Shown here in pieces: positions 25,790 through 26,605 of a stretch of DNA of 64,000 nt (positions are counted from its first letter, which is position 1; every line of letters starts with the position of its first letter). Location: contig NZ_RCZE01000010.1 of the NCBI RefSeq assembly GCF_006438915.1, forward strand, positions 62,001 through 126,000, given 5' to 3'. The translations under genes and the position numbers were made by a program. The DNA is from Pseudomonas arsenicoxydans (GTDB taxonomy: Bacteria > Pseudomonadota > Gammaproteobacteria > Pseudomonadales > Pseudomonadaceae). The notes below the pieces were generated by a model, which worked only from the letters and a program-made list of their open reading frames with translations, was not told the origin of the DNA and made no database searches.

Positions 25790-25810
25790 TGACGGCAGGC
25801 ACAACGGGAG

Positions 25811-25831
25811 CGGACCTCGCATTGGGGTCCG
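25811..25831 (+). terminator. Small hairpin after the SDR gene
   Basis: CGGACC (25811-25816) pairs with GGTCCG (25826-25831) across a 9-base loop, 22 bases after the SDR stop. It is a modest terminator candidate for the operon; no T-run follows. Confidence 0.4.
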
Positions 25832-26026
25832 TGCCGGCGCTGGATTCCCCCCTACGATTTGCAGCCGCTTAAACAACAAAAATTCAGCCTGTTTAAACGA
25901 AGCCTCCTGTTACTTCCTAAAGGCTACAACGCCTTGCGCCATCGCCTACAGGTAAGACAGAATCCGCCGGCTTGTGCGTCCTGGTCCCCGTCGTTAACTT
26001 GATTCCTGTCACTGCTCATCAGTGAT

Positions 26027-26161
26027 CGGGTCTGCAAGCCCGCCGGAATACCAGTCGCATAGCCCTGCCAACGGACGCTCGTTCATGTCCGCGAAATGGC
26101 GGCTTTGTGCGGGAGATCTTCGGGTCTGCCGGGTTCCTGGTTTCCCGGTCTTGCAGACCCG
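26027..26161 (+). promoter_or_regulatory. Candidate switching leader or operator array upstream of the DUF6124 gene
   Basis: CGGGTCTGCAAG (26027-26038) is an exact reverse complement of 26150-26161. A second copy, CGGGTCTGC (26121-26129), pairs with 26153-26161 and continues into an inner CGGG/CCCG stem (26130-26133 with 26144-26147). The two stems need the same 3' strand, so they exclude each other. This could be an RNA switch, or three DNA sites for one protein. Nothing here matches a riboswitch class I know. Confidence 0.5.
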
Positions 26162-26199
26162 CACATAGCTGCCACCCATCATCTGCAAGTGATGCGGGT

Positions 26200-26224
26200 A
26201 GCTCCTAATGAACAATCAGGAGTT
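26200..26224 (+). promoter_or_regulatory. Stem burying the Shine-Dalgarno sequence of the DUF6124 gene
   Basis: AGCTCCT (26200-26206) can pair with AGGAGTT (26218-26224) with one G-U pair and an 11-base loop. The right arm is the AGGAG ribosome-binding site, five to eight bases before ATG 26230. Translation may therefore depend on opening this stem. Confidence 0.5.
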
Positions 26225-26229
26225 TCGCC

Positions 26230-26592
26230 ATGATCAAACCAACACCCAACCCACCGGAAACCGATCCGGCATCGCCCTACGAATCGCTCGATTCGAAAAA
26301 ATTCCACGAAGCGGCCGAACGCGCCCTCGACCATTACCTCAACCCGGCCGCGCAAATCATGGCCAGCAACCACGAACCCGAACCGATGTTCCTCGCCAAC
26401 CCCAAGTGCGACACCGAATCCCTACTGGTCAACGCCAGCGAATCATTGGGCTCGGCCACCACCATGCTCAGCAATCTCGCGGCGCTGCTGGACAACTCAA
26501 ACCGCAAGACGCTGCTGGGGATTACCCAAGTGGTCATGTTGGGGGAATTGGCGGTGAATCAGGCGTTGGATAAGGTTGAAGTGAAGGCGTAA
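26230..26592 (+). CDS. DUF6124 (formerly DUF3077)-like small protein
   Basis: 120 residues; AGGAG precedes the ATG. The sequence starts with a Pro-rich tract (IKPTPNPPETDP), then KKFHEAAERALDHYLNP, and ends in a helical segment with SESLGSATTMLSNLAALLDN and TQVVMLGELAVNQALDKVE. I recognise the pattern of DUF6124/DUF3077 proteins, which occur in several copies in fluorescent pseudomonads and have no known function. No signal peptide or membrane segment. It stands alone behind the structured leader, which suggests post-transcriptional control. Confidence 0.8.
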   Translation: MIKPTPNPPETDPASPYESLDSKKFHEAAERALDHYLNPAAQIMASNHEPEPMFLANPKCDTESLLVNASESLGSATTMLSNLAALLDNSNRKTLLGITQVVMLGELAVNQALDKVEVKA

Positions 26593-26605
26593 GCACGGCC
26601 CCCTT

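Follow-up and report, generated by a model that had tools for sequence, protein, structure and literature searches.

The question raised by this locus is why the leader of a DUF6124 gene, within a window (the whole stretch of DNA analysed here) of 64,000 nucleotides from Pseudomonas arsenicoxydans, carries one short word three times in two orientations. The first-pass annotation had read these repeats as two mutually exclusive stems that would suit either an RNA switch or a DNA-binding protein, and had assigned them to no recognised class. The three exact copies of CGGGTCTGC are present, at 26027-26035 and 26121-26129 on the forward strand and at 26153-26161 on the reverse strand, as is the 12-bp pairing between 26027-26038 and 26150-26161, which is part of a 16-nt inverted repeat with 94% complementarity. 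The 9-bp pairing of 26121-26129 with 26153-26161 also exists and was returned by an inverted-repeat search as 14 nt at 86%. The word CGGGTCTGC is not in itself enriched, with 24 matches at no more than one mismatch in the 64-kb window and 26.8 expected. Two elements had been overlooked: a 17-nt inverted repeat, 26097-26113/26158-26174 (88%), and another occurrence of the target word, TCTGCAAG, at 26182-26189.

These repeats belong to a described class, C4 with c4-a1b1, where the earlier reading had found none. Positions 26092-26179 match the C4 antisense RNA of Rfam (RF01695, model positions 1-87) with 73.7 bits against a cut-off of 45 (E = 1.7e-12 over the whole window), and this is the sole Rfam match above cut-off in the whole 64 kb. 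A lax scan of 25800-26300 returned c4-a1b1 (RF03163) at 25995-26046 with 27.7 bits, under its cut-off of 46.7, isrK (RF01394) with 15.7 bits, under its cut-off of 50, and two weak matches to microRNA families that we take to be chance. The alignment to C4 identifies the overlooked 17-nt repeat as the main C4 helix, P1, and because it places the elements in this way, 26150-26161 corresponds to the specificity segment a' together with the start of the 3' strand of helix P1, and 26027-26038 to the upstream target a1. As the a1b1 class would have it, the target in the window precedes C4 and shares 12 bp with a'. We conclude that the leader carries a C4 antisense RNA together with an a1b1-type target. 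The suggestion of an RNA switch was sound as far as the switch-type pairings go, but the class is an antisense RNA; a ligand riboswitch was rejected, since C4 alone exceeds its Rfam cut-off in the window. The elements of the cassette are as follows.

25866-25899 (arms 25866-25875 and 25890-25899), no strand given: inverted repeat TTAAAC..GTTTAA, bounding the recurring cassette on the left, from an inverted-repeat search.
25972-26000, + strand: promoter-like pair TTGTGC-17-TAACTT, which recurs upstream of other own-genome copies.
26008-26026, + strand: first hairpin of the a1b1 leader, transcription probably starting close to its 5' end, from the weak RF03163 match and the fold.
26027-26042, + strand: upstream target a1, consisting of a CGGG stem, the loop TCTGCAAG and a CCCG stem, with 12 bp to 26150-26161.
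26045-26054, + strand: c1, GGAATACCAG, predicted partner of C4 loop 2 in the minimum-energy leader fold.
26092-26179, + strand: C4 antisense RNA (RF01695, 73.7 bits against 45).
26097-26113/26158-26174, + strand: C4 helix P1, from the RF01695 alignment.
26114-26118/26123-26127, + strand: C4 helix P2, from the same alignment.
26128-26132/26145-26149, + strand: C4 helix P3, from the same alignment.
26131-26142, + strand: loop-2 segment of C4, with 12-nt complementarity (G-U pairs included) to the Shine-Dalgarno region.
26150-26157, + strand: C4 specificity segment a', CTTGCAGA, with 8 Watson-Crick bp to a2 and 12 to a1.
26167-26173, + strand: segment b', AGCTGCC, with 7 nt to 26197-26203 including G-U pairs; not copy-specific.
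26182-26189, + strand: downstream target a2, TCTGCAAG, with 8 bp to a'.
26197-26203, + strand: b2, GGTAGCT, the partner of b'.
26214-26225, + strand: Shine-Dalgarno region AATCAGGAGTTT, with which C4 loop 2 can pair over 12 nt.
26230-26592, + strand: DUF6124 gene, 120 aa (PF19619, 69.4 bits against a cut-off of 27).

The 12-bp stem joins target a1 to a' and is incompatible with the main C4 helix, and it is this helix, 26097-26113/26158-26174, that is its competitor throughout the family. The claim of competing stems stands in that mutually exclusive RNA pairings exist, but the 9-bp stem is not the conserved alternative. A stem of this kind, formed with the segment at 26121-26129, reaches at least 8 bp in only one of the 43 own-genome C4 copies, that of the window itself, and is therefore no family feature. 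It does so in 21 of 113 related modules, all of which carry the window's target word, the stem being kept in 21 of the 24 modules with that word. We take it as a by-product of the window's target word, and any role that it has may be limited to that word type. The structure exceeds what chance would give: the folding z-score is -4.8 for the C4 part and -3.9 for the whole leader, and each folds better than every one of 200 shuffles. In minimum-energy models, C4 folded by itself contains helices P1 and P3 and lacks P2, and the leader (26007-26240) pairs a1 with a' over 12 bp (probability 0.95) and c1 with C4 loop 2, helix P1 being missing. Given the dominance of a1:a' in the leader fold, formation of C4 may be rare without rapid processing.

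The window cassette is one of many. The same Pseudomonas genome holds 43 C4 matches, 41 of them above cut-off, against none in 14 control genomes, and comparison of match lists places an RF03163 match upstream of 41 of the 43. At the lax threshold of that scan (E up to 1), 9 of the 14 control genomes also have matches below cut-off, so that the position upstream of C4 is the telling criterion; among the own-genome matches listed, 15 of 46 exceed the RF03163 cut-off. A C4 lies within 700 nt upstream, on the same strand, of 28 of the 34 DUF6124 genes and of 4 of the 6 DUF3077 genes. No C4 was found before 6 of the 34 DUF6124 genes, and two such C4-less genes retain an a1b1-like leader (L045:1280-1332 and L046:512-564, the latter on the reverse strand), of which that at L045 is a possible trans target because its word, TTGACAG, is identical to that of the L008 C4. 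Bro-N genes stand behind two own-genome C4 copies (L007 and L043), and what follows the remaining copies is either a cut gene or a small frame, no Pfam match being found in the small frames that were scanned. Individual loci show further arrangements: read by eye, three frames follow the C4 of L011, one short, one small and one antirepressor-like, L028 combines a matched switch with a DUF6124 frame that meets an early stop, and the gene behind the C4 of L039 is truncated. Elsewhere, C4 occurs in 36 of 57 genomes (own included), with up to 42 copies each, and a survey of the genus in which at most 14 candidates were scored per genome found at least one C4 in 275 of 298 genomes (own included).

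The same layout is shared by Pseudomonas-type viral contigs. A motif scan of viral contigs picked out 95, 92 of them with C4, and these yielded 83 complete modules, in 80 of which a2 pairs over at least 7 bp; 81 modules were oriented and 77 of these were unique. By simple letter rules, the frames near the 83 modules comprise 18 that are DUF6124-like, 5 that are DUF3077-like, 10 small frames and 50 others, and some of the contigs may include host DNA adjoining a provirus. Among 50,697 phage records DUF6124 appears in one, at a prophage edge, and on plasmid records no DUF6124 was found.

Comparison of homologous leaders, which the first-pass annotation had proposed as a check, shows that the first pairing is retained while its letters vary, across the own-genome, related and viral sets alike. 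The words were compared in 212 unique modules, the related ones (92 unique of 113) being skewed to close relatives of the window DUF6124 protein; the 212 contain 31 distinct 7-letter words, and about 10% of random pairings attain 7 bp. Among the own-genome copies, 42 of 43 have both a1 and a2 matched to their own C4 over at least 6 bp; the figure is 91 of 92 for the related and 74 of 77 for the viral copies. Taken singly, a1-a' reaches at least 6 bp in 42 of the 43 own-genome copies. Counting Watson-Crick pairs only, a' and its own a2 share at least 7 bp in 39 of 43 copies and at least 6 bp in all 43; at least 7 bp is found in 87 of 1806 non-own pairs, 58 of them through a shared word. The target was in each case the best complement within a fixed stretch, and non-own pairs were given the same freedom. 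When the 43 copies were compared with one another, the own means for a'-a1, a'-a2, loop 2-Shine-Dalgarno and loop 2-upstream pairing lay beyond all 10,000 permutations of the targets. Pairing of loop 2 with the Shine-Dalgarno region is therefore copy-specific, and that of b' with b2 is not (own mean 16.7 against 15.8 for the permutations, standard deviation 0.4, largest 17.4). In addition, 28 non-overlapping pairs of modules have C4 backbones at least 90% alike and different words, each matched to its own targets, the members of these pairs having been pre-selected for an own match of at least 6 bp.

Full isolation between the copies was also considered and is unsupported, the computed cross-talk being substantial. 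By summed duplex energy, a measure that disregards structure and local concentration, the own target comes first for 23 of the 43 C4 copies and within the top three for 36; for the window C4 it ranks third. Another C4 is within 2 kcal/mol of the own one, or better, for 32 of the 43 targets, including that of the window, where the own C4 gives -25.0 and the best other C4 -27.8 kcal/mol. We do not claim mutually insulated switches.

TTGTGC followed, at a spacing of 17 nt, by a hexamer resembling TA(A/T)(C/T)(T/G)T is present in 14 of 41 own-genome copies (promoters were listed for 41 of the 43), and a sigma-70 scan with stricter settings gave no hit in the window leader. GTTTAA occurs in all 17 own-genome copies of the window's promoter type, 13 of which have both arms, against 4 of 26 others, and this left-edge inverted repeat may be an operator or a recombination site. 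Where the window unit is aligned with units elsewhere, the fullest homology runs from 25857-25870, starting at the inverted repeat, to 26580-26602; in the syntenic copies L082 and L089 it extends past the cassette. Five loci, L059, L083, L086, L087 and L093, can be aligned with the window unit at 87-94% in the promoter part and again in the gene, but not in the RNA part between them. The non-coding segment 25908-25980, upstream of the promoter, is likewise 87-94% alike in these five loci and contains a CCTACA-like motif that was also seen, by eye, ahead of other C4 copies. Words differ in 13 of the 15 own-genome gene pairs whose coding DNA is at least 85% identical, a comparison of 16 of 17 copies from which L039, with its cut gene, was excluded. 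Beside the right neighbour gene, no C4 was found in the stretch at 18 of the 19 loci fetched, and one relative has a cassette bearing TTGGTAG instead of TCTGCAAG. L076 and L077 retain the left neighbour gene, after which the sequence diverges; an exact empty site was not obtained. Gene conversion or movement of the cassette would explain these patterns.

We propose that the leader is a C4-type antisense switch in the 5' leader of DUF6124, in which free C4 blocks translation and a1 serves as a decoy, and we put the probability of this reading at about 0.85. The C4 match, the pairings, the matched changes across copies and the linkage to the gene are the computed part of the explanation. The C4 RNA of P1 and P7 is processed to about 77 nt. 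Passages of PMC5320573 describe this processing as the work of RNase P, with b' partly hiding the ribosome site and a' conferring specificity. By analogy, the direction of control here is probably repression of DUF6124 by C4. According to the model, a single transcript would begin near 26008 and contain a1, C4, the a2/b2/Shine-Dalgarno segment and the gene; we infer this start, the processing of C4 and the decoy role of a1. C4 would probably be excised, as the P1 C4 is by RNase P, and the free RNA would place a' on a2 and loop 2 on the Shine-Dalgarno region, blocking translation of DUF6124. In the precursor, a1 together with c1 would act as the decoy, binding a' and loop 2 and preventing the C4 helix, which would release the gene. 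Alternatively, a1 might soak up C4 as a separate RNA, with the same outcome. No terminator-like site was found in the window leader, and a short decoy RNA is therefore unsupported for the window copy.

It is conceivable that C4 never leaves the leader and that the latter is a self-contained cis switch, flipping between a1:a' and the C4 helix in one molecule, with the choice made during transcription setting access to the Shine-Dalgarno region. This would agree with the predicted window fold, which has a1:a' and c1:loop 2 instead of helix P1, and with the minimum-energy folds of own-genome leaders, which split between helix P1 (23 of 42) and a1:a' (19 of 42); those of related leaders have helix P1 in 49 and a1:a' in 41 of 92. 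However, viral copies favour helix P1 (65 of 75, with a1:a' in 9), the set folded comprising 42 of 43 own-genome, 92 related and 75 of 77 viral modules. Moreover, passages of PMC5320573 describe the P1/P7 C4 as being processed and acting on the mRNA, and report processing of the C4-like RNAs of Acinetobacter in RNA-seq; we regard a switch confined to one molecule as rather unlikely. Binding of C4 to a1/c1 might instead alter termination between a1 and C4, a mode of action that is possible for P4 CI or IsrK-type leaders. The viral modules offer grounds for such attenuation: T runs of at least 5 occur in the 70 nt before C4 in 64 of 77 (shuffle mean 26.1), terminator-like sites precede C4 in 44 of 77, isrK exceeds its cut-off in 3 of 8 chosen viral loci, and a passage of PMC4603805 describes isrK and C4 as one unit in Burkholderia cenocepacia. 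T runs are also found before 14 of 43 own-genome (shuffle mean 7.9) and 14 of 92 related C4 copies (6.0), each count equalling the largest of 200 shuffles. Against attenuation, terminator-like sites are lacking in the window leader and present in only 6 of 43 own-genome and 2 of 92 related leaders. Since these sites are rare in chromosomal leaders, most chromosomal DUF6124 copies are without an IsrK-type terminator, which they may have lost, and control by termination at this locus seems to us improbable.

The remaining possibility, raised at the outset, is that the repeats are sites for a DNA-binding protein and their pairing as RNA incidental, and their occurrence in both orientations near a promoter-like site would fit such a protein. 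Yet the segment is a full covariance match to C4, and the words vary among copies while still matching across three segments. Because copy-specific changes match across separated segments, we disfavour this explanation and consider it scarcely tenable.

The proposed antisense switch has several relatives. Both C4 and c4-a1b1 appear in a 2010 listing (PMC2864571, in part), and the cassette shares with the P1/P7 C4 (RF01695, RF03163) the covariance structure, targets on both sides of C4, a word-specific a' and a gene directly behind. Unlike the P1/P7 system, it is chromosomal, present in about 43 copies in this one genome and followed by DUF6124 or DUF3077 instead of phage genes, and its loop 2-Shine-Dalgarno matching is copy-specific. 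Passages of PMC5320573 report multi-copy Acinetobacter C4 sRNAs (2016) and also note that C4 is predicted in Pseudomonadales. The C4-like Group 1 sRNAs of Acinetobacter baumannii described there, with 21 copies in one genome, resemble the present copies in their number, variable a', upstream stem-loop and the GG that starts the processed part; in the window, GG at 26098-26099 lies close to the predicted 5' end of C4. Those passages name no target for the Group 1 sRNAs, whereas here a probable target lies directly behind each copy. IsrK and P4 CI are models for the upstream target (PMC4825925, in part). In the IsrK/orf45-anrP system of Salmonella prophage Gifsy-1, as passages of PMC4825925 present it, a leader RNA pairs downstream and affects the ribosome site, with an antirepressor as output, and the short frame before DUF3077 in some of our copies resembles orf45. 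By eye, the short frame behind C4 in L001, L003, L004, L006 and L011 seems to overlap or abut DUF3077 or a small phage gene, recalling orf45-anrP. The window differs from IsrK in its score (15.7 against 50), in having no terminator-like site and in having no antirepressor at the locus. P4 CI RNA with seqA/seqC is likewise a processed antisense RNA between upstream and downstream complementary segments; the same passages have it acting by transcription termination, whereas the mechanism proposed for the window leader would act at translation. In the open-licence literature, judged by titles, abstracts and passages, we found no description of C4-DUF6124 cassettes, DUF6124 being absent and DUF3077 almost absent from what was searched. 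New here are dozens of word-diversified chromosomal C4 cassettes with a new output family.

The DUF6124 protein is predicted to fold as a helical hairpin (mean pLDDT 74.7, pTM 0.51), with no match to the predicted fold in the PDB at E <= 0.001; the structure alignment comprised the window protein, 18 of 80 related loci and 14 of 18 viral DUF6124 frames. No named family or defence system matched the protein at E <= 0.01 in PADLOC, PHROGs or NCBIfam. One gene of the own genome (G000, C37:243600-243788) is above cut-off in both the DUF6124 and the DUF3077 Pfam models, and this double match suggests, at the level of sequence, that the two families are related.

A wider idea, which we offer as a long shot, is that Pseudomonas chromosomes hold up to about 40 domesticated C4 switches which meet phages with the same switch: C4 would silence a phage module of the same word, and phage a1 would soak up C4, releasing DUF6124 as an alarm. 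Among viral modules that lack a DUF6124 gene, own-genome words account for 10 of the 12 words and for 53 of the 57 modules, and an own-genome C4 is within 2 kcal/mol of the cognate one, or better, for 41 of 60 viral targets without a DUF6124 gene; shared ancestry, the small word space and the choice of the best of 43 could be the source of these figures. C4 has an established part in phage immunity; with a probable target behind each chromosomal C4, the role of chromosomal C4 RNAs becomes directly testable. Similar proteins would be placed under differently coded RNA control, and the cassettes put DUF6124 and DUF3077 in a regulatory context and connect them to phage modules.
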